Positions 2,849 through 24,712 of a DNA stretch of 50,000 nt are shown piece after piece. The stretch is from positions 1 through 50,000 of the forward strand of contig CACIHJ010000007.1 in the NCBI GenBank assembly GCA_902586435.1. The letters are read 5' to 3'. Each line of letters starts with the position of its first letter. The first letter of the stretch is position 1. Both the position numbers and the translations under genes were made by a program. The notes beneath the pieces are model-generated. The model worked only from the letters and a program-made list of their open reading frames with translations, was not told the DNA's origin and searched no databases. This DNA is from an uncultured Bacteroidota bacterium. GTDB lineage: Bacteria; Bacteroidota; Bacteroidia; Flavobacteriales; Flavobacteriaceae.

Positions 2849-4284
2849 TGCTATCAAAGCCATTAGTTCTATACAACTCCTTATCTGGTAAAAAAGAGGA
2901 GTTTAAACCATTAAAAAAAAATCACTTAGGGATTTATGTTTGTGGACCTACAGTATACAGTAATGTTCATCTAGGTAATTGTAGAACTTTTATTTCATTT
3001 GACATAATATATCGTTACTTTATGCATAAAGGATATAAAGTTAGATATGTTAGGAATATTACAGATGTAGGGCATCTTGAAGATGATGGACAAGATAGAA
3101 TTAACAAAAAGGCAAAGCTAGAAAAGCTTGAACCTATGGAGGTCTCAAACAAATATACTAATGATTTTAAAGACACTTTAAAAGAGTTTAATGTTTTACC
3201 GCCAAGTATTGAACCTCTTGCCTCAGGTCATATAATTGAGCAAATAGAAATTATTAAGAAAATAATTGATAACGGTTTTGCATATGAATCTAATGGGTCA
3301 ATTTATTTTGATTTAGATGAGTTCAGAAAGGAATATAAATATGGAAAATTATCTGGAAGAGAAATAGATGAGCTAATCTCTAACACAAGAGAGTTAACTA
3401 GTCAGGATGACAAAAGGAAACCATATGATTTTGCTCTATGGAAAAAGGCTGACTCAAAACACTTAATGAAATGGACTTCACCTTGGGGTATTGGTTTTCC
3501 TGGATGGCACATCGAATGTACAACAATGAGTCATAAATATCTTGGAGAAAAGTTTGATATTCATGGGGGTGGAATTGATCTTAAGTTTCCTCACCATGAA
3601 TGTGAAATAGCACAATCTGACGCATTATCAAAAAACCATTCTGTTAATTATTGGATGCATACAAATATGCTAACACTGAATAATAAAAAAATGTCAAAAT
3701 CAACAGGAAATAATATTCTTCCAAAAGATTTAATATCTGGTAAAAACAAAGTTTTTAAAAACGCTTATTCATCAAATATTATAAGATTTTTCTTTCTTCA
3801 AGCACATTATAGAAATGTTCTAGATATTAGTGAGGAGGCCTTAAAGGCATCAGAAAAGGGGTTTAATAAAATTGTTGATGCATCTGAAAAATTAGAAAGC
3901 CTAAAAGAAAACAAATCACCAGAGAGTAATTATGACATAGAGGGTTGGATTAATAAATGCTACGACTGTATGAATGATGATTTTAATACACCTAAATTAA
4001 TAGCTGAGATTTTTACGGTGATTAAATTAATTAATAAAGTTCATGATGGTAAGGAAAGCATTAATTCAAAAAAAATAAAATTATTAAAGAATATTTTCCC
4101 TGTATTTATATCTGAAATTCTAGGTTTAAAAATTGATAAAGATGATTCTAGTGATAGTGATGCATTACTTGATGTAATTATTAGAATAAGAGATGAAGCT
4201 AGAAAAAATAAGGACTATAAAACCTCAGATATAATTAGAAATAGATTATCTAAAATTGGGTATAATATTAATGATAATGATTAA
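2848..4284 (+). CDS. cysS: Cysteine--tRNA ligase
   Basis: Class I aminoacyl-tRNA synthetase that charges tRNA-Cys. The HIGH-type signature appears as HLGN (residues 41-44) and KMSKS at 281-285. The four expected zinc ligands are visible: C32, C224, H249 and E253 (in FPHHECE). At 478 residues it has normal length, with the helical anticodon-binding C-terminal domain present. It starts on the last base of folE and its 3' end overlaps yidD by eight bases. No defect is seen. Confidence 0.98.
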
Positions 4285-4501
4285 TAAAATACTGATCTAT
4301 CCATTTATTATAATAATTAAATTTTATCAATCCTTCATATCTCCTTTAATTGGATCTAACTGTAGATATACTCCAACATGTTCAACATATTCAATTGATT
4401 CTTTAAAAAAGCATGGCTTGATAAAAGGTATGTTTTTATCAATAAAGAGAATAAGCAAATGTAATTCTCTTTTTAAGGGTGGTTATGATCCAGTTCCATA
4501 A
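4277..4501 (+). CDS. yidD: Membrane protein insertion efficiency factor YidD
   Basis: Small 74-residue protein that in other bacteria assists YidC-dependent membrane insertion. An N-terminal amphipathic/hydrophobic helix ([17 protein letters not shown]) is followed by the family signature [10 protein letters not shown] and the ending GGYDPVP. I chose the ATG at 4277 because it gives the usual YidD N-terminus; an ATG at 4271 and a TTG at 4256 are also in frame. The gene overlaps the cysS end. It sits next to lgt, in keeping with a membrane-protein/lipoprotein biogenesis group. Confidence 0.92.
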
Positions 4502-4521
4502 AATATTTACTATTTTTAATT

Positions 4522-5370
4522 ATGTTAATATCTCAAATTAAATGGTCCCCTAGCGATACTCTTTTTGAAATTGGCGGTTTCTCTATATATGTGTATAGCT
4601 TAATGTTTGTTGTTGCATTTGTTCTTGGATACCAATTGGTTAAGTCATTTTTTACAAAAGAAAGAATAGATCATAAATATCTTGATCCAATGTTGTTATA
4701 TATGGTTATATCTACATTTCTAGGAGCAAGACTAGGTGAAGTATTTTTTTACAACTGGGGCTACTTCCAAAATCATCTTATTGAAATTTTACTACCAATT
4801 CAAGAATCTAGCAATGGCTCAATTCTTGGTTTAATAGATGGATATGAGTTTGTTGGCTTTAGAGGATTAGCAAGTCATGGAGCGGCTATTGGGATTGCTA
4901 TAGGATTAATTCTATTTCAGAGAAAATATAAATTTAAAAGTGTATTATGGATTTTTGATAGACTTACAATGCCTGTAGCTATTGGTGGAGCTTTTGTTAG
5001 AATTGGCAACTTTTTTAATTCAGAAATAGTTGGGAAATACACAAACTCTTCATATGGTGTTATATTTGAAAACAGAGGTGAGACTCTTCCAAGACATCCA
5101 GTCCAACTTTATGAAACTTTTGGTTATGTTCTTTTATTTTTTATACTATTAAAATTATATAACTCTTCTATAAGAAATAAACAAGGAGCGTTATGGGGTT
5201 ACTTTTTAATTGGATTGTTCTCTATTAGATTTTTGACTGAGTTTTTTAAAGAAGATATAGGGGGGATTGAAACATTTTTACCTGCTTTATCATCAGGTCA
5301 GTGGTTAAGCTTACCTTTTATCTTGATTGGAATAATAATGTTATATATAAGTAATCGAAAGACTATTTAA
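4522..5370 (+). CDS. lgt: Prolipoprotein diacylglyceryl transferase
   Basis: Inner-membrane enzyme that transfers diacylglyceryl from phosphatidylglycerol to the lipobox cysteine of prolipoproteins. The 282-residue protein has about seven hydrophobic segments. Family landmarks are the H119-G pair (SHGAAIG), the Lgt signature RIGNFFNSEIVG starting at R160, and HPVQLYE near residue 194. Several lipoproteins elsewhere in this window would be its substrates. The start ATG follows a TATTTTTA element by three bases. The 3' end overlaps the opposing secDF gene by eight bases. Confidence 0.97.
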   Translation: MLISQIKWSPSDTLFEIGGFSIYVYSLMFVVAFVLGYQLVKSFFTKERIDHKYLDPMLLYMVISTFLGARLGEVFFYNWGYFQNHLIEILLPIQESSNGSILGLIDGYEFVGFRGLASHGAAIGIAIGLILFQRKYKFKSVLWIFDRLTMPVAIGGAFVRIGNFFNSEIVGKYTNSSYGVIFENRGETLPRHPVQLYETFGYVLLFFILLKLYNSSIRNKQGALWGYFLIGLFSIRFLTEFFKEDIGGIETFLPALSSGQWLSLPFILIGIIMLYISNRKTI

Positions 5371-15452: not shown

Positions 15453-16253
15453 ATGAATTTAAACAATATCCCAAAAGATAAGTTCCTCCTAATTGCAGGA
15501 CCCTGCGTTATAGAATCTGAAGAAGTTAGCTTAAAGATCGCAGAAGAGCTAATTGCAATTACCTCAAAGTTAGGTCTACCTTTGATTTTCAAGGGGAGTT
15601 ACAAAAAAGCTAATAGAACTAAACTAGATAGCTTTAGTGGCATAGGTGATATAAAAGCTCTGGAAATTTTAAAAAAGATAAATCAAGAATTTAAAGTACC
15701 TGTTATAACTGACATTCATGAAAAAGGAGAAGCTCAAATAGCATCTGAGTATGTAGATGTTCTTCAAATTCCAGCTTTTTTAGCTAGACAAACTGAACTT
15801 TTAGTTGCAGCTGCAAAAACTGGTAAGACTGTTAACATCAAGAAGGGACAATTTATGAGTCCTGATAGTATGGAATTTGCTGTAAATAAGGTGAAAGAAT
15901 CCGGTAATGATAATGTTATGATTACTGAAAGAGGAACACAATTTGGATATAATGATTTAATTGTTGATTTCAGAAGTATACCTAAAATGAAAAAAATTGC
16001 CCCAACAATTCTTGATGTTACTCACTCAGTCCAGAAACCTAACCAAGATTCTGGAGTAACTGGGGGTAACCCTGAATACATTGAATCCCTTGCTAGAGCT
16101 GGGATTGTTAATGATGTAGATGGTATTTTCCTAGAGACACACACTGATCCATCAAAATCCAAAAGTGATGGAGCTAATATGTTAAGTATCGAAAAATTAG
16201 AAAGTCTATTAAAGAATCTTCTTGAATTAAGATCTACATCTTCTAAGCTTTAA
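15453..16253 (+). CDS. kdsA: 3-deoxy-8-phosphooctulonate synthase (KDO8P synthase)
   Basis: Condenses phosphoenolpyruvate with arabinose 5-phosphate to KDO 8-phosphate for lipopolysaccharide core. The 266-residue protein has LIAGPCVIES near the N-terminus, with Cys18 at the position that separates metal-dependent (Cys) from metal-independent (Asn) KdsA; also KANRTKLDSF and TERGTQFGYND. So it is predicted to be the metal-dependent type. kdsC, two steps later in the pathway, lies in this window at 27936. tmRNA follows. Confidence 0.96.
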   Translation: MNLNNIPKDKFLLIAGPCVIESEEVSLKIAEELIAITSKLGLPLIFKGSYKKANRTKLDSFSGIGDIKALEILKKINQEFKVPVITDIHEKGEAQIASEYVDVLQIPAFLARQTELLVAAAKTGKTVNIKKGQFMSPDSMEFAVNKVKESGNDNVMITERGTQFGYNDLIVDFRSIPKMKKIAPTILDVTHSVQKPNQDSGVTGGNPEYIESLARAGIVNDVDGIFLETHTDPSKSKSDGANMLSIEKLESLLKNLLELRSTSSKL

Positions 16254-16301: not shown

Positions 16302-16701
16302 GGGGTCGACCGGTTTTGACAGCAAGTTTAATAACTATGTTAGCAAGTCGAGCATTGAAAATGGACTCGTTAATATCATTTTCAAAATTTAAATGGCGAA
16401 AATAACTACGCTTTAGCTGCATAATTGACTGAATTATAGTAAGTCTTTGCAATATCCTAGCTAGGCTAGGAAGCTAGATGTCTCATGATAGCTCTTGTCA
16501 ACTGATATCATATATGAGGCACCATAATCGTTGACATAGGTTTTTGTTTTCACTAATCAAAAACTAAAACTAAAAGTGATAAGGAAAATATTTAGGTTGT
16601 CTAATACCTATATTTTTTCGAAAAATTAAAGTAGACTAAACTTGTAGAATACATTTTTGTTCCTTGTTTGGACGCGGGTTCGATTCCCGCCGACTCCACC
16701 A
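16302..16701 (+). ncRNA. ssrA: tmRNA (transfer-messenger RNA)
   Basis: Rescues stalled ribosomes by adding a degradation tag. The 5' end GGGGTCG pairs with CGACTCC near the 3' end, leaving a G-U at the third pair, the alanine identity element. The T-arm GGGTTCGATTCCCGCC-like segment and an encoded CCA (16699-16701) complete the tRNA-like part. The tag frame at 16395-16421 encodes GENNYALAA followed by TAA at 16422, a tag typical of Flavobacteriia. One-piece gene of 400 bases, not permuted. It accounts for most of the 524-base gap between kdsA and the next gene. Confidence 0.97.
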
Positions 16702-16704
16702 AAA

Positions 16705-16739
16705 AAACCCATCAACCTCTTGATGGGTTTCTTTTTTTT
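16705..16739 (+). terminator. Rho-independent terminator after tmRNA
   Basis: An 11-bp perfect stem (16705-16715 with 16720-16730) around the loop CCTC is followed by a T-rich run to 16739. It begins three bases after the tmRNA CCA. Its 3' arm overlaps the candidate -33 TTG of the next gene. Confidence 0.9.
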
Positions 16740-16748
16740 ATATATTTG
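16720..16748 (+). promoter_or_regulatory. Candidate promoter of the ABM-like gene pair
   Basis: TTG at 16720-16722, an 18-base spacer, then TATATTTG at 16741-16748. Both elements fit the Bacteroidetes -33/-7 pattern and the spacing equals that at the HU promoter. The -33 lies inside the tmRNA terminator stem. The ATG is 29 bases downstream. Confidence 0.55.
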
Positions 16749-16777: not shown

Positions 16778-17539
16778 ATGAGAAAATTATTATTATTATT
16801 TACAGTTTTATTTTCATTTTCTGTAAACGCTCAATATGCCGTTATGTGGGCAGTTGATCTAAAAGATGGTGCAGAAGATGACTACTTAAAACTTGAAAAA
16901 TTCTATTCTGAAATCCATAAAGAAGCTCTTAAACAAGGTCTTCGATCTGGATGGTCAGTATGGAAAAGAACACCTCAAGAAGGTGATGAAGCTAATCAAG
17001 CCGAGTATGTTATTTTTGATAACTTTAGTTCAAAAGAACAAATGAATGCAAATGATGCACCAAGTAACGCTGAATTAGCTCAAAAAGTATATAAAGGGAA
17101 GATGTCTAAGAGGGCAATCCAAAAAATGATGGACTCAACAGGAGACTACAGTAATGAAAGAAGAACATATACTTTAGAAGTTAAAGATGCAACTATATTA
17201 GGTGGAGGGAATGTGAAACCAGGCGATGTTGCTACAATTAACTTAATGACTAAAAAAACAGATGATTTTGAAAAATATGAATCAGAAATCTGGAAGCCAG
17301 TTGCTGAGAAAAATATTTTAACTGGAAGACTAAGACAATGGATACTTGTAGAGGTTACCGATAGATCTGAAAATGCTTGGTCAGAATTTACTCACTTTGC
17401 ATGGAACCTAAGAGGGAACCTTGATGTGAAAGGAGTAGAAACTTCTGGTTTTAAATGGGATAAATTATGGGAAGGAATTGAATCATCTAGAGATATGCAA
17501 GATGCAAATGAATTTACATGTGTACTTGCTGTTTATTAA
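16778..17539 (+). CDS. Secreted protein with two ABM-like (dimeric alpha-beta barrel) halves, copy 1
   Basis: A 253-residue protein with a clear signal peptide (LLLLFTVLFSFSVNAQ, cleavage after about residue 18). Two halves look alike: residues 20-85 contain DGAEDDYLKLEKFYSEIHKE then GWSVWKR, and residues 155-210 contain DDFEKYESEIWKPVAEK then QWILVEV. This helix-then-strand pattern recalls ferredoxin-like ABM/EthD folds, but no catalytic residue is evident. Eighteen bases downstream lies a paralogue of the same architecture. Function unknown; a periplasmic small-molecule-binding role is possible. Confidence 0.7.
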   Translation: MRKLLLLFTVLFSFSVNAQYAVMWAVDLKDGAEDDYLKLEKFYSEIHKEALKQGLRSGWSVWKRTPQEGDEANQAEYVIFDNFSSKEQMNANDAPSNAELAQKVYKGKMSKRAIQKMMDSTGDYSNERRTYTLEVKDATILGGGNVKPGDVATINLMTKKTDDFEKYESEIWKPVAEKNILTGRLRQWILVEVTDRSENAWSEFTHFAWNLRGNLDVKGVETSGFKWDKLWEGIESSRDMQDANEFTCVLAVY

Positions 17540-17557
17540 TCATAAAAATCAATTAAA

Positions 17558-18328
17558 ATGAAAAAAATTATATTATTACTATCGTTAATGTTCACATTTA
17601 GCGCTTCAGCACAATACGGAATTTTAAGTGCTGTACAGTTAAATGAAGGTGCAGAAGATCAATACTTAGCTTTAGAAGCTTTTTTTGGACCTGTACATGA
17701 TCTTGCAATTGAAAAAGGTTTAGAAAATTTTCAAGCTGTTTGGAAGGTAACTTCTGATTCAGCAGATGAAAATGCTCCACATTATATTATATATACTGGT
17801 TTTGAATCAAAAGAACAACTTGATGCTTACACTAGTGGAACTCAAGATTGGGTTGCTCTAGCTAAAGAGGCTCATAAAGGGTCAATTTCTGCAAGTAGAG
17901 TTGAGAGAATAATGAATAATGTTTCTAATGAAAGTAAAGAAAGAAGAAACTATCACCTAATGTCAGTTGATAATACAGTGTTTGCTGGAAGTATAGAACC
18001 AGGAGATATTATGACAATAACTCCAACTAAAGCCCTAAATGATGATTTCGAAAATTATGAAACAAAATTTTGGAAACCATATATTGAAAAGGCAATACTT
18101 ATGGGACAACACAGATACTGGGGTCTTTCAAAAGTTTATGAAAGAACTGAGAATGCTTATGAAGGTATGACTCACTTTTTCTTTAATTTTCCTGTAGAAG
18201 GTTCTAATTGGTGGGATGGTGTTATAGATCAAGATAGTTTCAAATTCCAAAAACTTCAAGAAGGTCTTAATGCTGCTAGTGAGCATTCTGATCCAATTAC
18301 TTTGGAATTAGTTTCAGTTCATAACTAA
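17558..18328 (+). CDS. Secreted protein with two ABM-like halves, copy 2
   Basis: A 256-residue paralogue of the preceding gene, with its own signal peptide (IILLLSLMFTFSASAQ). Matching blocks include NEGAED near residue 28, SKERRNYHL near residue 127, EPGDIMTITP, and DDFENYETKFWKPYIEKAI with HRYWGLSKV. Divergence is substantial, so the duplication is not recent, although adjacency shows it was in tandem. An intrinsic terminator follows, defining a two-gene operon. Unknown function; the C-half Trp residues and FFFNFP stretch are shared in type with copy 1. Confidence 0.7.
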   Translation: MKKIILLLSLMFTFSASAQYGILSAVQLNEGAEDQYLALEAFFGPVHDLAIEKGLENFQAVWKVTSDSADENAPHYIIYTGFESKEQLDAYTSGTQDWVALAKEAHKGSISASRVERIMNNVSNESKERRNYHLMSVDNTVFAGSIEPGDIMTITPTKALNDDFENYETKFWKPYIEKAILMGQHRYWGLSKVYERTENAYEGMTHFFFNFPVEGSNWWDGVIDQDSFKFQKLQEGLNAASEHSDPITLELVSVHN

Positions 18329-18348: not shown

Positions 18349-18383
18349 AAAAAACCCACCATTTAGGTGGGTTTTTTACTTTT
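18349..18383 (+). terminator. Rho-independent terminator after ABM-like pair
   Basis: A 12-bp stem (18349-18360 with 18366-18377) with loop ATTTA, rich in CCCACC/GGTGGG, followed by T residues. The A-rich 5' side makes it potentially bidirectional. The mscS -7 box begins at its last stem base. Confidence 0.85.
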
Positions 18384-18388: not shown

Positions 18389-19600
18389 ATGTTTTACGAA
18401 GAAATAATTACATTTTTAACATCTAAAGGATTAAGTGAACTAGTTTCTCAAGGTTTAGCAACTCTTATAATCGTTGCTTCTATCTCTCTAGTTGTTATTG
18501 TAATTAACTTTATAACTAAAAAAATTATTTTATCCTTTTTTAAAAGGATTGCTAAATCAACATCATCATCATTTGACGATCTATTGATAAAGAACAAAGT
18601 CCCAGGATTATTATCATATATCCCCTCTTTGTTTTTCCTATTCTGGATAATACCGACATATTCTAATACACTCTATCTCTTAATAGAAGCATTTACAGTT
18701 ATTTTATTTATTCTAACCGTAAGAGCAATTCTTAACACAGTAAAAGACTATTTTAAATCAAGTGATTCTTTAAAACATATACCTGTTGATAGCTATATAC
18801 AGGTTATAATGATTTTTATATGGTTTGTTGGTATAATATTAATCTTGTCAGTATTAACTGGAAGAGAAGTAGGTACTTTCTTAGCATCATTAGGTGCTCT
18901 TTCTGCAATAATAATATTAGTATTTAGAGATACAATTTTAGGCTTTGTATCTAGTATTCAGATTACAGTTAATGACACTGTTAGAATTGGAGATTGGATT
19001 ACAATGAAAGGTTCTAATGCAGATGGTAACGTAATTGAAGTAAATCTATCAACTGTTAAAGTTCAAAATTTTGACAATACAATAACTACTATACCTACAT
19101 ATAAATTAGTATCTGATTCTTTTATCAACTGGAGAGGTATGAGTGAATCTGATGGTAGAAGAATAAAGAGATCTCTTCTTATCAAACCATCATCAATTAA
19201 ATTTTTAGATGATGAAGAAATTGAGTCCTTAAAAAAAATTCATCTATTATCTGATTATATTAAAAAGATTCACAAGGAAATAAAAAGTTATAATTCATCA
19301 AATCAAGTTGATAAATCAATGCTAATAAATGGAAGAAATTTGACTAACCTTGGAATCTTTAGAGAATATATTCAAAGATATTTGAAAGAACACCCTGATA
19401 CTAATGATAATCTAACAATGATGTGTAGACAATTACAGCCAACTGCACAAGGTATTCCAATCCAGATCTATGCATTTTCAAAAGATAAAGAGTGGACAAA
19501 ATATGAAGCTCTCACTTCAGATATTTTTGACCACCTTCTATCTTCTGTTAAATATTTTAATCTAGAATGTTTTGAACTTAATCAATTCCCTGCCCAATAA
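18389..19600 (+). CDS. Mechanosensitive ion channel, MscS family (YbdG-like)
   Basis: A 403-residue inner-membrane channel that would open under hypo-osmotic stress. Four hydrophobic segments lie at about residues 20-43, 75-112, 134-156 and 165-195; the last contains the Gly/Ala pore helix FLASLGALSAIIILVFRD. The cytoplasmic beta domain follows with VRIGDWITM and NFDNTITTIPTY. The insert WRGMSESDGRRIKRSL resembles the YbdG/MscM branch. Its 3' end overlaps the convergent BNR gene by 23 bases. Confidence 0.92.
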   Translation: MFYEEIITFLTSKGLSELVSQGLATLIIVASISLVVIVINFITKKIILSFFKRIAKSTSSSFDDLLIKNKVPGLLSYIPSLFFLFWIIPTYSNTLYLLIEAFTVILFILTVRAILNTVKDYFKSSDSLKHIPVDSYIQVIMIFIWFVGIILILSVLTGREVGTFLASLGALSAIIILVFRDTILGFVSSIQITVNDTVRIGDWITMKGSNADGNVIEVNLSTVKVQNFDNTITTIPTYKLVSDSFINWRGMSESDGRRIKRSLLIKPSSIKFLDDEEIESLKKIHLLSDYIKKIHKEIKSYNSSNQVDKSMLINGRNLTNLGIFREYIQRYLKEHPDTNDNLTMMCRQLQPTAQGIPIQIYAFSKDKEWTKYEALTSDIFDHLLSSVKYFNLECFELNQFPAQ

Positions 19601-22600
19601 TATATGGCGGATTTAATTGTTTAACTTCATTTTCAAGATCTTTAACCTCTTTATTTAATTGCTCAATTTCATTCTTCATCTTCTCGAAATGTTTCTCTGC
19701 AATTTCAAGATTTGAAGAGTTTAATTCAGTTGGACCATAAGAAGTTGATAACCCTTGCATTGCAATCCTTATCCTCACTCCCAAGTTAGGCTTATACCAT
19801 TCTCCTATCTCATCTCTAGCAGGACTACTGTCATTTTCATATTCATAGTCATTATATGTATCCTTAAAATCAGAAATTTTAGCAATTATATCTGGTGAAA
19901 ATGATTCAAGTTGCATTGAAGCTTTTTCTAGTAATTGAATTTTATTTCCAATCATTGAAAATACGTCTTCATATTTAGAGATATTAATATAAAGTTTTGA
20001 AACCCTTTCTCTAAATCTATTATATTCATCATAAGAAGCTCCCTTTAGAGTTCCCTCTCTGAGGGGTTTTACACTAAAATTAATTGGACCATCAAGTTTT
20101 TCAATAGAACCATTATTTTCTAGGAAAAGCTCTGCTTGATAATCTCCAGGAGTAGCATAAGGACCTGATGGGCTCCATCCCCAACCTCCTCTAAAAGATC
20201 CTGATCTAATAGGATAATAGCTCTTGTGTCTTAAATTCCATGCTATTCTTCCTGAACCATTAGAAGCATTCTTCTTTACATTATTTATAAGATTACCATT
20301 GGAATCTTTTATAGTAAGGATAATACTAGCCGGCTTTTCATTCATCTCATCAGAAAGGGCCTTATATCCAGGGAATGGGATATCTTTCTTATCAGAATTA
20401 AGCTTTCTTTCAGATTGAATCCTTTTTGACTTAGATGTTTTTGGCACATCTTTTAAATGGTAAGTAAATACCGCACCATATGTTGGGTTTTTTGCAACAT
20501 AGAATTGACCACCCGTATTACCTAAAGAATTTCTTGGCTTAAATAACTTAGCATCTCTAGGTTTAAACAACTTACCTTTTTTTGATAAATTTTCAGGAGT
20601 CATTTCTCTTAGCGCACTATAATCATCTAAGACAAAGAATCCTCTACCAAAAGAAGCTCCAACTAGATCATTCTCTCTTTCTTGAATAACAATATCTCTA
20701 AATGAGATTGTTGGTGAGCCTGGAAGTTTTTGCCAGTTCTTACCAGCATCTAAAGAAGTATATATTCCAAATTCTGTAGCTAGAAAAAATAAATCTTTAT
20801 TAACGTGATCTTGTACAAATCTCCATACAAGAGTTCTGTCTGGAATATTATTTGAGATTGATTCCCATGATTCCCCAAGGTCATCACTCTTAAATAAGTA
20901 TGGTGATAAATCCCCTTCTTTATGATTATCTAAAGAGACATAAACAGTATTAGGATCATAAAGGTCTGCCTTTATATCATTAACAAATGATCTTTCAGCT
21001 AGACCAAGTTTAGTAACAGGGATTGATTTCCAAGAATCACCTCCATTAGTTGTAACTTGAATAAATCCATCATCAGTTCCAGCCCATATAGTCCCCTTTG
21101 ATACCGGTGATTCAGATAAAGAAGTTATGGTATTATACTGAGACATTGCTTTAACATCCCAAGCATTGTCCCAACTTTGCTTTCTTCCCATAATTGGAAG
21201 TTCAATTCTATTTTCATTTCTAGTTAAATCTCCAGAGATTGCGTTCCAACTATCTCCTCTATCCATAGATTCCCAAACTCTATATGAACCTATGTATATT
21301 TTTGCTGGATCATGTGGACTAACTAGAATAGGTGTATCCCAATTATATCTCTCATGAGGGTCACCCTCTAATGCTTGAGGTTGAACAAATACTTGCTCAC
21401 CAGTTTTTAGGTCAACTCTATGAAATCTACCTTCTTGAGTTGTTGCATAAATTATATCATTATATACTGGGTCTGTTGCTGATTGGTGACCATCTGCAAA
21501 TAATGTTTTATACCAATCTCTATTTGTAATACCAGTTCCTTCATCAGTAGCAGAAGGCCCTCCCGCAGAACCATTATCTTGAGTTCCACCAAAAATATGA
21601 TAAAATGGCTCCTTATTATTAACTGCAACCTTATAAAATTGTGTTAATGGAAGATTTAAAAAGTAATGCCAGTTTTTAGCAAGATCAAAACTTTCATATA
21701 TACCTGCATCAGTTCCAACCATAATATAGTCAGGATCACTTTCTTTAAATGCAATAGCATGGTGATCACTATGTTTTTGTCTTGCACCCTCTAGAGTACG
21801 GAAATTTTTTCCACCATCTTCTGAAGTCAAAATTTGAACATTCATTAAATAAAGTCTATCAAATTTATGAGGACTTGTATATAATTCTTGATAATAATGA
21901 GGACCTGTTCCACCTGAAACTGTATTTGACATCTTCTTCCATGATTCTCCTCTGTCAACAGATTTATAAACACCTCCTTTTGTTCTATCAAGTTCAATAG
22001 CTGCATAAACAACATCAGGGTCTTGATATGACATTGCAATACCTATTTTACCTAAGTTAGACCTAGGCACTCCATTAGTAAGTTTTTTCCATGTATTTCC
22101 ATTATCATCAGATCTATGGATACCTGATCCTGGACCACCTCCCATATATGAAGCAACAGTTCTATGTCTATCCCATGTGGCAGCATATAGTATGTTAGGA
22201 TGTCTTGAATCCATCATTATATCTGTAACCCCTGTCCATTCAGAACCTCCTAATATTTTACTCCATGTCTCTCCTCCATCACTTGTCTTGTATAAACCTC
22301 TATCTCCACCACTTGACCATAAAGGTCCCTGAGATGCAACATAAACAACATTTGAATTATCAGGATGAATAATTATTTCAGATATATGTTCTGAATTTTT
22401 TAATCCCATATTTTTCCATGTCTTTCCTCCATCTGAACTTTTATAAACACCATCACCATACCCAACATGTCTTCCACCAACGTTTTCTCCAGATCCAACC
22501 CAAATTATACTTGGATTAGAAGGATCTATATCTACTGATCCAATTGAGTATGTTGGTTGGCTATCAAAAATCGGGTTCCATGTGTTACCGGCATTATCAG

Positions 22601-22844
22601 TCATCCAAACACCCCCTGATCCAACAGCAATATACCATACGTTTTCATTATCTGGATGAATTGCTATATCAGCTATTCTTCCTGATAAAAAAGCTGGACC
22701 AACATTTCTAAGTTTAAATGCATTTAATGATACTTTTTCAGTCTTTGAAGCATCATTTTGTTTATTTCTTTTTCTTTGAGAATTACCTTGAAGTGGTAAA
22801 ATAAAAAGCAAGGCAATTAAAATTATTTGTATTTTTTTCATCAT
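19578..22844 (-). CDS. Exported BNR/Asp-box repeat protein, VPS10/sortilin-like
   Basis: A 1088-residue secreted protein. After a signal peptide (IQIILIALLFILPLQGNSQ) come about ten Asp-box motifs of the form SxDxGxTW, for example SSDGGKTWKNMG, TSDGGETWSKIL, SVDRGESWKKMS and TTNGGDSWKSIP. These indicate one or more large beta-propellers of the sialidase/sortilin type across residues 50-730. The last ~300 residues are non-repeat and include a helical, charged coiled-coil-like end (IEQLNKEVKDLENEVKQLN). Often named a glycosyl hydrolase, but no catalytic set is evident; a binding or protein-processing role is equally likely. Confidence 0.85.
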   Translation of the reverse strand: MMKKIQIILIALLFILPLQGNSQRKRNKQNDASKTEKVSLNAFKLRNVGPAFLSGRIADIAIHPDNENVWYIAVGSGGVWMTDNAGNTWNPIFDSQPTYSIGSVDIDPSNPSIIWVGSGENVGGRHVGYGDGVYKSSDGGKTWKNMGLKNSEHISEIIIHPDNSNVVYVASQGPLWSSGGDRGLYKTSDGGETWSKILGGSEWTGVTDIMMDSRHPNILYAATWDRHRTVASYMGGGPGSGIHRSDDNGNTWKKLTNGVPRSNLGKIGIAMSYQDPDVVYAAIELDRTKGGVYKSVDRGESWKKMSNTVSGGTGPHYYQELYTSPHKFDRLYLMNVQILTSEDGGKNFRTLEGARQKHSDHHAIAFKESDPDYIMVGTDAGIYESFDLAKNWHYFLNLPLTQFYKVAVNNKEPFYHIFGGTQDNGSAGGPSATDEGTGITNRDWYKTLFADGHQSATDPVYNDIIYATTQEGRFHRVDLKTGEQVFVQPQALEGDPHERYNWDTPILVSPHDPAKIYIGSYRVWESMDRGDSWNAISGDLTRNENRIELPIMGRKQSWDNAWDVKAMSQYNTITSLSESPVSKGTIWAGTDDGFIQVTTNGGDSWKSIPVTKLGLAERSFVNDIKADLYDPNTVYVSLDNHKEGDLSPYLFKSDDLGESWESISNNIPDRTLVWRFVQDHVNKDLFFLATEFGIYTSLDAGKNWQKLPGSPTISFRDIVIQERENDLVGASFGRGFFVLDDYSALREMTPENLSKKGKLFKPRDAKLFKPRNSLGNTGGQFYVAKNPTYGAVFTYHLKDVPKTSKSKRIQSERKLNSDKKDIPFPGYKALSDEMNEKPASIILTIKDSNGNLINNVKKNASNGSGRIAWNLRHKSYYPIRSGSFRGGWGWSPSGPYATPGDYQAELFLENNGSIEKLDGPINFSVKPLREGTLKGASYDEYNRFRERVSKLYINISKYEDVFSMIGNKIQLLEKASMQLESFSPDIIAKISDFKDTYNDYEYENDSSPARDEIGEWYKPNLGVRIRIAMQGLSTSYGPTELNSSNLEIAEKHFEKMKNEIEQLNKEVKDLENEVKQLNPPYIIGQGID

Positions 22845-22864
22845 ATAAATTAATTAGTTATAAT

Positions 22865-22872
22865 TAAATATA
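22865..22872 (-). promoter_or_regulatory. Candidate -7 box for BNR gene
   Basis: Minus-strand TATATTTA matches seven of eight positions of TAnnTTTG, 20 bases before the first ATG of the BNR gene. Confidence 0.35.
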
Positions 22873-22889
22873 TGAAAAATACCTTAGGA

Positions 22890-23798
22890 TTAAAACACTT
22901 CTGCAATCATACAACGAGCACTTCCTCCACTATTATTCTCAATATTTTTTAGAGATGAATAAACTATCTGAGTGTTCTTCTTTATTATGTCCAATTGATT
23001 ATCATTAAAAGAGCTGTATGCCTTGGAACTCATTACTAAAACAGGGCCACTTTCTCCAATAAGTTGAATACAATTTGCCCCAAATGAAGACATTTGACTA
23101 ACACTAATATCTATTATCTCTAATCCATTGGATATTAATGAATTAGTTACAGTTTCCTTTTCTTTTTTGTCAATTATTGATTCTAGGCAGATAACTGAAA
23201 ATTTATTACAAATACTCAACACTACATTAGTGTGATATATAGGTTTATCTTGATGAAATGATTTGAAAAGGACTGGATTATAACCCATATCCAAACAAAA
23301 TTTATTTACCAATTCTTTATTTGATCTTTGGGATAGTGAACAGTATGCTATTCTGTTAATCCTATCAAGGACTAGACTACCCGTGCCTTCTAAGAACATG
23401 TTATTATTTTCGAAATTTGAATAATCCTTATAAATAGATATGTTTTCACCATTATTATTCAAACATTCTATTGCCAAGTTTGTTCTCTCTAATCTTCTGT
23501 TTTTAGCAAACATAGGATATGTTATAGCTTTATTATCCTTATGGAAAGAAATCCAATTATTTGGAAATACTGCATCGGGAGTGTCAACATCTCTTTCATC
23601 TTTAAAAACAGTTACCTTGACACCTTCTGATTCTATTTCATTTTTAAGTAATTCAAATTCTTCTATTGCTTTAATATTTATCTCACTATTAGATAGATTA
23701 GAAGTATTTTTCTGAAAAGTATTATCATTTAATGTTAGCTCATTACTTCTAAAATTTTTTGGGTAGGTCATTAATATGTGTGATGAAAAATGATTCAT
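22890..23798 (-). CDS. ctlX: Citrulline utilization hydrolase CtlX-like (arginine deiminase fold)
   Basis: A 302-residue guanidino-modifying enzyme-fold protein. The substrate-site block TPDAVFPNNWISFH is diagnostic for CtlX-type proteins, and a cysteine close to the C-terminus (SARCMIAEV) is in the catalytic position. I start at the ATG at 23798, two bases after the upstream stop, because the longer version would read back through the neighbour. CtlX is linked to citrulline/arginine breakdown in related bacteria; the exact reaction cannot be proven here. It is the last gene of a ccsBA-deiminase-ctlX run. Confidence 0.85.
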   Translation of the reverse strand: MNHFSSHILMTYPKNFRSNELTLNDNTFQKNTSNLSNSEINIKAIEEFELLKNEIESEGVKVTVFKDERDVDTPDAVFPNNWISFHKDNKAITYPMFAKNRRLERTNLAIECLNNNGENISIYKDYSNFENNNMFLEGTGSLVLDRINRIAYCSLSQRSNKELVNKFCLDMGYNPVLFKSFHQDKPIYHTNVVLSICNKFSVICLESIIDKKEKETVTNSLISNGLEIIDISVSQMSSFGANCIQLIGESGPVLVMSSKAYSSFNDNQLDIIKKNTQIVYSSLKNIENNSGGSARCMIAEVF

Positions 23799-23800
23799 AT

Positions 23801-24712
23801 TTATTCTCTTAACAATGGTAATGTGGAGCATCTAAATAGGCCTGACATCTTTGATACATTTTTATATGAAATCTTTTCTACAAGAAAGTCATTTCTCTCT
23901 AGCCAAGTATTAATTTTACTAAATCTTTTATCTGAAACTATTACTTCAGGAGATATAACTAATAAATTGGATATCAACATATAAGCTTCTTGCCCATATG
24001 CCAGATATGTATTCTTTTTGCCAAAGTAACTAATCAAGTATTCAACATCACTTTTATTGACAAAAGAATCTGGACAGATTATAGCTTTACGCTTTCCTAT
24101 AGGTTGAAAACAACAATCCAAATGAAGAACATTTTCAAAAACATCAGTATTTGATTTTTTGATATTTATCGACATAATTTCCTTACTCGGAATCATCTTT
24201 TCTAAATAGCTTATTGACTCTTGATTAGTCCTTGCAGTTATTAATTCTGAGTAATCTTCCCCAGAATAAGTGCCAATAAATAACTTATCGTTATGAATAA
24301 CAACATCTCCCCCCTCTATATGCATATAGTCAGGCAATTTAACAACTCCTGCATCTAAATTATTTATAATACCTGATACACCTACAAGCTCTTCTTCTCT
24401 ATTAGGAACAATATTAGATTGAAAGAATATATTTGAAATCGTGAAACCTAAATCTCTTGCAAAAACCTGATTACAGTTCTTTATATTATCAGGCCTTAAT
24501 ACATCTACATTATGTTTTATAAGAATTTTATAAAAAGATTCTACATCTTTTTTGACATCAACCTCACTTGGATAAGATTTATTCTTTATATGATAAAGAG
24601 ATCTTGGATCATAAACATCAAAAACTTTTGGAGGATCACCCATATCCTCAGCCAAACCAAGTATGACTGACTTTAGGGCTGAATATTCATTATCTACCTT
24701 TACCTCAATCAT
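23801..24712 (-). CDS. Arginine deiminase/amidinotransferase family protein
   Basis: A 303-residue second enzyme of the same superfamily. Visible catalytic features are EGGDVVIH (Glu/Asp pair), the His in HLDCCFQPIG and a terminal Cys in GLFRCSTLP. It could be a dimethylargininase, arginine deiminase or amidinotransferase; the family alone does not decide. It starts directly after the ccsBA stop and ends two bases before ctlX, so both deiminase-fold genes are likely co-expressed. Together with the ornithine aminotransferase at the window end this suggests arginine-derived amine catabolism. Confidence 0.83.
   Translation of the reverse strand: MIEVKVDNEYSALKSVILGLAEDMGDPPKVFDVYDPRSLYHIKNKSYPSEVDVKKDVESFYKILIKHNVDVLRPDNIKNCNQVFARDLGFTISNIFFQSNIVPNREEELVGVSGIINNLDAGVVKLPDYMHIEGGDVVIHNDKLFIGTYSGEDYSELITARTNQESISYLEKMIPSKEIMSINIKKSNTDVFENVLHLDCCFQPIGKRKAIICPDSFVNKSDVEYLISYFGKKNTYLAYGQEAYMLISNLLVISPEVIVSDKRFSKINTWLERNDFLVEKISYKNVSKMSGLFRCSTLPLLRE

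Follow-up and report, generated by a model that had tools for sequence, protein, structure and literature searches.

The genes reported here belong to a locus whose copy number changes and whose genes form a mosaic from one species to another. This, beyond the coordinates given in the first-pass annotation (16778-18328 of the window, the whole stretch of 50,000 nucleotides from an uncultured Bacteroidota bacterium that was analysed), is the main finding of the current analysis. Comparison of the sequences indicates that an array of one to six related genes appears to have been swapped between species while the flanking genes stay. The explanation that we consider best, giving it just under an even chance, is an operon of exported barrel proteins that is reshuffled between species by recombination, the products of which would be periplasmic and ligand-binding or enzymatic. 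If the reshuffling holds in populations, the locus would be one on which selection for diversity acts in an uncultured marine group; it would also provide a small set (five types) of proteins with directly testable ligands.

The locus in the window

Gene A (16778..17539, + strand) encodes a 253-residue protein of exported type with two ferredoxin-like repeats, as judged from the open reading frame, the AlphaFold2 model and the structural neighbours. An apparent Sec signal peptide, recognised by eye, covers residues 1-19 (16778..16834) and has the ...AQ end that is common in the alignment. It is followed by an N-terminal repeat of residues 20-138 (16835..17191) and a C-terminal repeat of residues 151-253 (17228..17536), delimited by the AlphaFold2 secondary structure and by the hhalign alignment of one repeat to the other. 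Gene B (17558..18328, + strand), which falls in the clade called B1 below, encodes an exported-type paralogue of 256 residues with the same two-repeat fold. Its apparent Sec signal peptide, also recognised by eye, comprises residues 1-19 (17558..17614), and its AlphaFold2 model has an N-terminal repeat of residues 20-139 (17615..17974) and a C-terminal repeat of residues 151-256 (18008..18325). The first-pass annotation of this DNA had described tandem paralogues 18 bases apart with separate signal peptides, and the current analysis agrees on both points. The stop of A and the start of B, both on the + strand, are separated by 18 bases, 96 of 251 aligned columns are identical (38%, E 8e-62), and the hydrophobic N-terminal stretches, by eye Sec signal peptides, end in ...NAQ in A and ...SAQ in B.

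The order of features, all on the + strand, is a KdsA-like gene (266 residues, 15453..16253, assigned by eye), a tmRNA gene found in the window (16302..16701, tag GENNYALAA) that serves as the upstream anchor of the array, a terminator-like hairpin (16705..16730), A, B, an intrinsic-terminator-like hairpin (18349..18377) and the gene of an MscS-like channel (403 residues, 18389..19600; PF00924, E 1.8e-16), both hairpins having been identified in a hairpin scan. The hairpin between the tmRNA gene and A favours A and B as a separate unit. The operon had also been credited with its own promoter and terminator. The hairpin after B is in keeping with the terminator; the promoter has been dropped since the scans gave counts at or under chance, with 10 sigma-70-type sites against a mean of 15.3 in shuffled sequences, and 79 occurrences of TAnnTTTG in the window against 78.3 by chance. 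One such element is situated upstream of A (16741-16748), and 3 of 19 loci have an exact copy no more than 130 bases 5' of the first array gene, at a distance of 126 bases in one case.

Family and distribution

On the evidence of profile searches, A and B appear to belong to an undescribed family, to which no Pfam or NCBIfam model can be fitted convincingly. Pfam gives no convincing match to either protein; the ABM family (PF03992) is absent at E up to 10 for A and B, and it is not one of the families that 53 (E up to 1) and 47 (E up to 0.1) aligned proteins match either. Weak matches to DUF4286 are seen in 5 of the 53 aligned proteins (best E 0.0031). NCBIfam gives no useful match to A, B or the 47-row set, and searches of PDB sequences with A, B and the aligned sets gave sub-threshold or meaningless matches only. 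The description of the proteins as ABM-like in the first-pass annotation has therefore been retained for the fold and the structural neighbours and rejected for membership of the ABM Pfam family. A literature search, mostly outside subscription papers, found no description of this protein family or locus.

A scan of genome contigs has identified 28 loci with family members. The titles include Cryomorphaceae bacterium MED-G11, Flavobacteriales, Flavobacteriaceae, uncultured Bacteroidetes and one Saprospiraceae MAG, and from the look of the isolate names we take these genomes to be marine. In the genus that includes MED-G11 all 25 genomes match at E 0.001, 24 of them strongly and one (G007) only weakly, with a maximum of 15 matches in a single genome (G021); the profile used includes the signal peptide, and the weakest matches may be driven by it. 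Paralogues are expected to be lost from ocean bacteria with streamlined genomes; even so, these 24 genomes of 25 (0.8-1.3 Mb assembled) match strongly. Among the sampled genomes of Flavobacteriaceae 60 of 299 match at 1e-5; with up to 8 candidates scored per genome, the ten genomes with at least four matches are all 2.1 Mb or smaller and larger genomes have at most three each. A mature-protein profile matches 43 of 395 genomes across the phylum. At E 0.01 the genome of the window itself has 4 members with the mature profile (A4) and 7 with a profile that includes signal peptides (A1). A start resembling a signal peptide was seen by eye in 44 of 45 long members. Periplasmic proteins of this kind had been called unusual, a word that fits the expansion and not the existence of such proteins, given the relatives in 60 of the 299 genomes.

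Position, copy number and gene types of the array

The array, which lies between the tmRNA gene and the mscS-like gene where this place is assembled, was seen in 20 of the 25 genomes of the genus. Loss of the array in the other five has been rejected as an interpretation, for mscS was not found (E 1e-20) in G002, G006 and G007 and is a mere piece in G008 and G011. In a scan for tmRNA that omitted L091, the gene was found upstream of the array in 16 of 20 loci, the remaining four (L076, L077, L093 and L094) reaching contig ends first; tmRNA is absent from six further loci scanned outside the array setting. Since tmRNA genes are known insertion sites, an island inserted there by an integrase could be considered, and of the 16 loci whose tmRNA is in view 14 do have the array as the next listed gene 3' of it. 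The occurrence at the same place in all 16 loci with enough upstream sequence points instead to an old and common position, and we regard such an island as very improbable indeed.

Some of the loci have additional features around the array. An ORF of 622 residues lies 5' of the array in L075 (2799-4667) and L076 (361-2229), and one of 635 residues (2968-4875) precedes it on the opposite strand in L074, in each case with tmRNA or the end of the contig on its other side. The place of mscS in L074 (6612-7825) is occupied by two shorter ORFs, and the gene may be broken in the assembly.

A single gene makes up the array of L085; L088 has three, L083, L086 and L092 have four each, L089 has six, and the other uncut loci have two. 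The gaps between its genes are 10-56 bases long (17 loci, with starts set at the signal peptide). Contigs end in or near the array in G004 (C5/C14), G005 (C9/C27), G011 (C27) and G024 (C76), for which the gene counts are to be read as at least those seen. Assemblies often break at variable or repeated loci, as they do at the array in these four genomes.

A tree of 53 proteins assigns most of the array genes to one of five old types, A, B1, B2, C and D. The clades comprise 15 rows for A (support 99/98), 8 for B1 including B of the window (100/99), 9 for B2 (100/96), 4 for C, with weaker support (95/74), and 4 for D (100/100), the placement of D among long branches being unsure. The six genes of L089 are in the order D, C, A, a second A, B1 and B2; other loci are subsets of these types, with a different order in L086. 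L092 (4232-4981) has inside its array a gene of a type that lies outside the array in the genome of the window (C5:13210-13950).

Mosaicism between the array and its flanks

Identities between species in the two flanking genes, KdsA and MscS, are correlated (Mantel 0.65, attained by 1 of 2000 permutations; 91 pairs from 14 loci). Gene A, the only array gene entered in the Mantel and AU tests and represented in L089 by its first copy, tracks neither flank, with values of 0.12 (438 of 2000 permutations) and 0.03 (813 of 2000). In 86 of the 91 species pairs it falls below both flanks in similarity and in 3 it exceeds both, and its median identity between species is 64%. Single pairs show how the genes of one array part company; in these, comparisons of the last gene mix B1 and B2. 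The closest pair, L079 and L090, has 98% identity in MscS and 93% in KdsA, with 64% in A and 62% in the last gene. A is 95% identical between L083 and L087, the last gene 58%, and in L081 and L084 the reverse is seen, with 59% in A and 95% in the last gene between flanks of 83-84%.

The boundaries of the divergent region have been followed at the nucleotide level. For L079/L090 the identity is 87-98% before the array, 58-80% inside it and 92-99% after it. It stays at 80-97% across the leader and signal-peptide region, drops about 90 bases into A and rises again within the final 30 or so bases of the last gene, ahead of mscS. The switch in identity is at the gap between A and B in L083/L087 and at about the start of B in L081/L084. 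A gradual fall at the start of the array in L087/L088, and a change in L083/L089 that starts about 140 bases before the end of C, suggest that what was exchanged did not in every case coincide with complete genes.

With gene A, the AU tests reject three pairs taken from the flanks, L079/L090, L080/L084 and L087/L088 (p 5e-115, 1e-6 and 1e-10), the last of which has just 84/80 support in the flank tree; on the flanks the array groupings L088/L090 and L085/L088/L090 are rejected and L083/L087 is not (p 0.087), all these groups having been picked after the identities were seen, which makes the p-values optimistic. The genomes compared are one per species and many are titled MAG or incomplete, and mis-assembly could mimic some of the mosaics. 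Isolate names such as AG-447-K04 are presumably those of single cells, though some such titles also say MAG; a single-cell origin, if so, would lower the risk of chimaeras.

These observations have to be weighed against a history of plain tandem duplication in which copies were lost differentially and diverged fast, with no exchange between lineages. Tandem arrays easily grow and shrink, and most identities between the arrays of different species are simply low, as the median for A indicates. Fast divergence and differential loss of old duplicates could thus explain part of the pattern, but not genes that are more alike than both flanks, as A is in the 3 pairs mentioned and as is the last gene of L081/L084, at 95% against 84 and 83% in the flanks. 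Neighbouring genes of one array show conflicting relationships, and the flank pairs are rejected by the AU tests. We consider duplication and loss alone to be improbable.

The array also stands out in its wider neighbourhood. Among reciprocal best pairs from about 36-60 kb round the locus in three genome pairs, the array genes rank first and second from the bottom of 26, second and third of 30, and first and second of 36, one of the two array matches of the third pair being a B2 gene compared with a B1 gene. Other fast genes near the locus are two at 52 and 62% in the second genome pair and, in the third, a large VPS10-like gene (by eye) with two neighbours of 301-303 residues at 67-78%. The corresponding region of the window (19578-24712), with a VPS10-like ORF and two following ORFs of 303-313 residues, is unusually diverged in G022/G014. 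A paralogue situated outside the array in four genomes shows 83-94% identity over six pairs in which A has 59-69% and MscS 76-93%; a fifth genome has that paralogue inside its array, 87-92% identical.

For the seven orthologue pairs nearest to each other, with dS no higher than 0.65, dN/dS is 0.04-0.13; it reaches 0.34 among pairs further apart. Such low values indicate that the array genes are under constraint. Within type A (15 rows) the variation is highest in the loops at 120-124 and 213-224 and in the region of the second helix of the N repeat, and low at 105-110 and in the helices of the C repeat.

These observations also bear on the idea of an outward-facing diversity locus, involved with phages, grazers or competitors, in which swapping would be kept by negative frequency-dependent selection as in other variable surface loci. 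The variation in copy number, the mosaicism of genes between conserved flanks and the rank of the array proteins at or close to the bottom of their neighbourhood in conservation, unlike the paralogue outside the array, would agree with it. The low dN/dS between close orthologues speaks against it. So does the search for surface attachment signals: a type IX sorting domain (NCBIfam) was matched neither in A and B (E up to 10) nor in 47 aligned proteins (E up to 0.1), and lipoprotein models gave no match above cut-off for A and B. An outward-facing role of this kind seems to us unlikely.

The preferred reading, a reshuffled operon of periplasmic barrel proteins, would involve the exchange of whole genes between lineages by homologous recombination. 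One crossover arm would be provided by the conserved stretch of tmRNA, leader and signal peptide, and the other by the end of the last gene, the terminator and mscS. With more reserve it is suggested that the types differ in specificity and that a streamlined cell profits by swapping members of the set. A more specific form, in which the five ancient double-barrel types make up a variable recognition system, swapped via constant ends and with ligand or partner specificities particular to each lineage, is possible, though we think it rather unlikely.

Fold and internal duplication

The AlphaFold2 model of A, made with 53 aligned proteins as input, has a mean pLDDT of 91.3 and a pTM of 0.85, and that of B a mean pLDDT of 92.7 and a pTM of 0.86. 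Both models have the order beta-alpha-beta-beta-alpha-beta twice per chain, which is the arrangement of the dimeric alpha+beta barrel superfamily, a ferredoxin-like repeat with two repeats per barrel. On these models each protein is a single chain with two homologous ferredoxin-like domains, and the four copies of one fold announced in the first-pass annotation are thus recovered. Profiles of the N-terminal and C-terminal halves are aligned by hhalign with a probability of 96.1, an E of 3.1e-9 and a score of 52.7, against a maximum of 19.5 in 200 column shuffles; a family-wide alignment of 47 rows gives a probability of 97.3 and a score of 59.7, against a maximum of 14.7 in 200 shuffles. An earlier shuffle run with the A4 alignment had a single score of 132.8, above the real one and presumed to be a parsing artefact, and the repeat with 200 other shuffles is the one relied on. 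The internal duplication claimed from the letters alone is supported in this way. Models without ferredoxin-like repeats, or unrelated halves, had been named as the outcomes that would speak against it, and neither was found.

Residues kept in at least 90% of the 47-row alignment are E40, G54, W59 and W188. Between the halves G54 corresponds to G183 and W59 to W188. H47, K63, Y77, R129, Y131, H206 and N210 also count among the conserved positions. A strand with Trp had been proposed for both halves of each protein. This is correct for A, which has W59 and W188, and not for B, which has Gln at 59 and retains W188 only.

The nearest solved structures of A and B are two-domain alpha+beta barrels with Z of about 14-16 and sequence identities of 4-11%. 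They include 3gn6, with Z 15.2 to A and 14.6 to B. Well behind these, at Z of about 10, come HmoB, chalcone isomerase, chlorite dismutase, HemQ and DyP.

Histidines and the question of tetrapyrrole binding

A has only two histidines, H47 in alpha1 of the N repeat and H206 in beta3 of the C repeat, and they are the pair best kept across the array. Among 40 array proteins His is found at position 47 in 33, at 206 in 39, at 185 in 21, at 240 in 17 and at 105 in 8. Position 185, which opens the sixth strand (beta2 of the C repeat), is His in B and Leu in A. Positions 105 and 240 adjoin the alpha2 helices and are His in B and some others, and alpha2 of either repeat in A is free of His. The site of chlorite dismutase, DyP and HemQ is lacking: residues 164-181 of A include no His, and no column of this stretch has four or more among the 40 array proteins. 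Two members from large genomes, L121 (5641-6429) and L131 (5564-6346), carry a histidine in the first helix of the C repeat (P-[ILM]-H-Q). This is the place of the heme ligand of chlorite dismutase and DyP, and array members are without it.

One could propose that the family consists of heme or other tetrapyrrole proteins, the exported equivalents of IsdG/HmoB, chlorite dismutase, DyP, HemQ or siroheme decarboxylase, a role that in our judgement is quite unlikely. Some members of the group of HmoB, chlorite dismutase/HemQ and DyP are themselves exported. HmoB, chlorite dismutase, HemQ and DyP are among the structural neighbours, at Z about 9-10, and His is common at the five array positions listed above; these neighbours are, however, well under the group at Z 14-16. 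According to PMC4835899, tandem duplication is usual among tetrapyrrole barrel proteins, which would favour such a role, and the axial His is located on alpha2 in IsdG and OxdA, on alpha1 of the C-terminal domain in Cld, DyP and HemQ, and on beta2/beta6 in siroheme decarboxylase, the enzyme of H. thermophilus having its ligand on the sixth strand. H47 and H206 of A are off these places, and heme binding by A at the described positions has no support. Position 185, on the other hand, is on the sixth strand, like the siroheme decarboxylase ligand, and B has His there. Tetrapyrrole binding by the B types may be conceivable from their sequences, with His at or near three of the places described.

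Neighbourhood of members outside the array

Genes of SnoaL-like proteins have been identified near other members of the family. Of 133 SnoaL_2 matches, 18 have a family member within 2 kb, against 2.1 expected (126 family matches in the genus were used, weaker and unlisted ones being omitted), and in 36 further genomes 8 of 150 SnoaL matches are within 4 kb, among the matches listed, against 0.7 expected (78 listed family matches, weaker ones omitted); both expectations assume uniform placement, and orthologues are not independent. The SnoaL matches near family members include none near an array gene, and the clue is therefore an indirect one. Members outside the array with SnoaL-like neighbours include those of L058, L059, L060, L129, L135 and L112, from the genus and from other genera.

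In larger genomes a histidine kinase of HisKA_2 type and a LytTR response regulator are encoded near the family member of L118, L120, L121, L127, L129, L131 and L135. Six of these seven loci also have SnoaL-like genes, and four have another exported-looking family of about 255 residues, the L121 member of which is without a Pfam match. Two loci have a gene of O-methyltransferase type nearby, and one of them also an EthD protein and a dioxygenase. Neighbour families were tested on L121 and L129 and assigned in other loci by similarity clusters.

By analogy with the nearest structural relatives it is suggested, more cautiously than the exchange of genes, that the products of the array are periplasmic and would bind or act on small molecules. 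The suggestion is drawn from the nearest structures of known or proposed activity, which are oxygenases, and from the SnoaL-like genes near other members. A shared fold shows no function, and identities of 4-11% count against functional inference.

Comparison with known systems

The sulfur oxygenase reductases are iron enzymes with a His/His/Glu iron site and require a catalytic cysteine. Like A and B they are two-domain barrels (Z 14.2-15.8 over about 210 residues), with longer chains of about 307 residues in those listed. The cysteine is not kept across the array: B is without Cys, and the mature proteins have none in 24 of 40 cases and one in 16 of 40. The structure 2pgc, a marine metagenome protein with a PDB title that gives no function, is likewise a two-domain barrel and superposes with Z 16.1 on A (194 residues, rmsd 3.1) and Z 15.6 on B (201 residues, rmsd 3.5). 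It differs in sequence, with 4-6% identity, and is not retrieved by the sequence profile; a two-term literature search on it found no paper.

The putative monooxygenases 3mcs and 3f44, which we take to be tandem ABM proteins, also have both domains in a single chain, here 210-218 residues long; they align with Z 13.9-14.3 over 195-203 residues and differ from A and B in sequence (7-9% identity). The anthrone-oxidase-like protein 5f9p and the monooxygenase PenE (9kdp) are two-domain barrels with Z 13.8-14.8 and 8-11% identity, and by eye no polyketide genes were recognised at the array of the window. HmoB, chlorite dismutase/HemQ and DyP are duplicated alpha+beta barrels too, as PMC4835899 describes, with Z of only about 9-10 and with axial His positions that are unmatched in A.

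With respect to its genomic organisation the array resembles the flexible genomic islands, having variable gene content between conserved flanks. The genomic islands of marine bacteria described in PMC3478194 include homologous-recombination islands in marine Bacteroidetes, and there likewise the content varies between conserved flanks and homologous recombination has been proposed. Unlike those islands, the array consists of one small operon whose genes all encode members of one protein family, and the genomes that carry it have 0.8-1.3 Mb.
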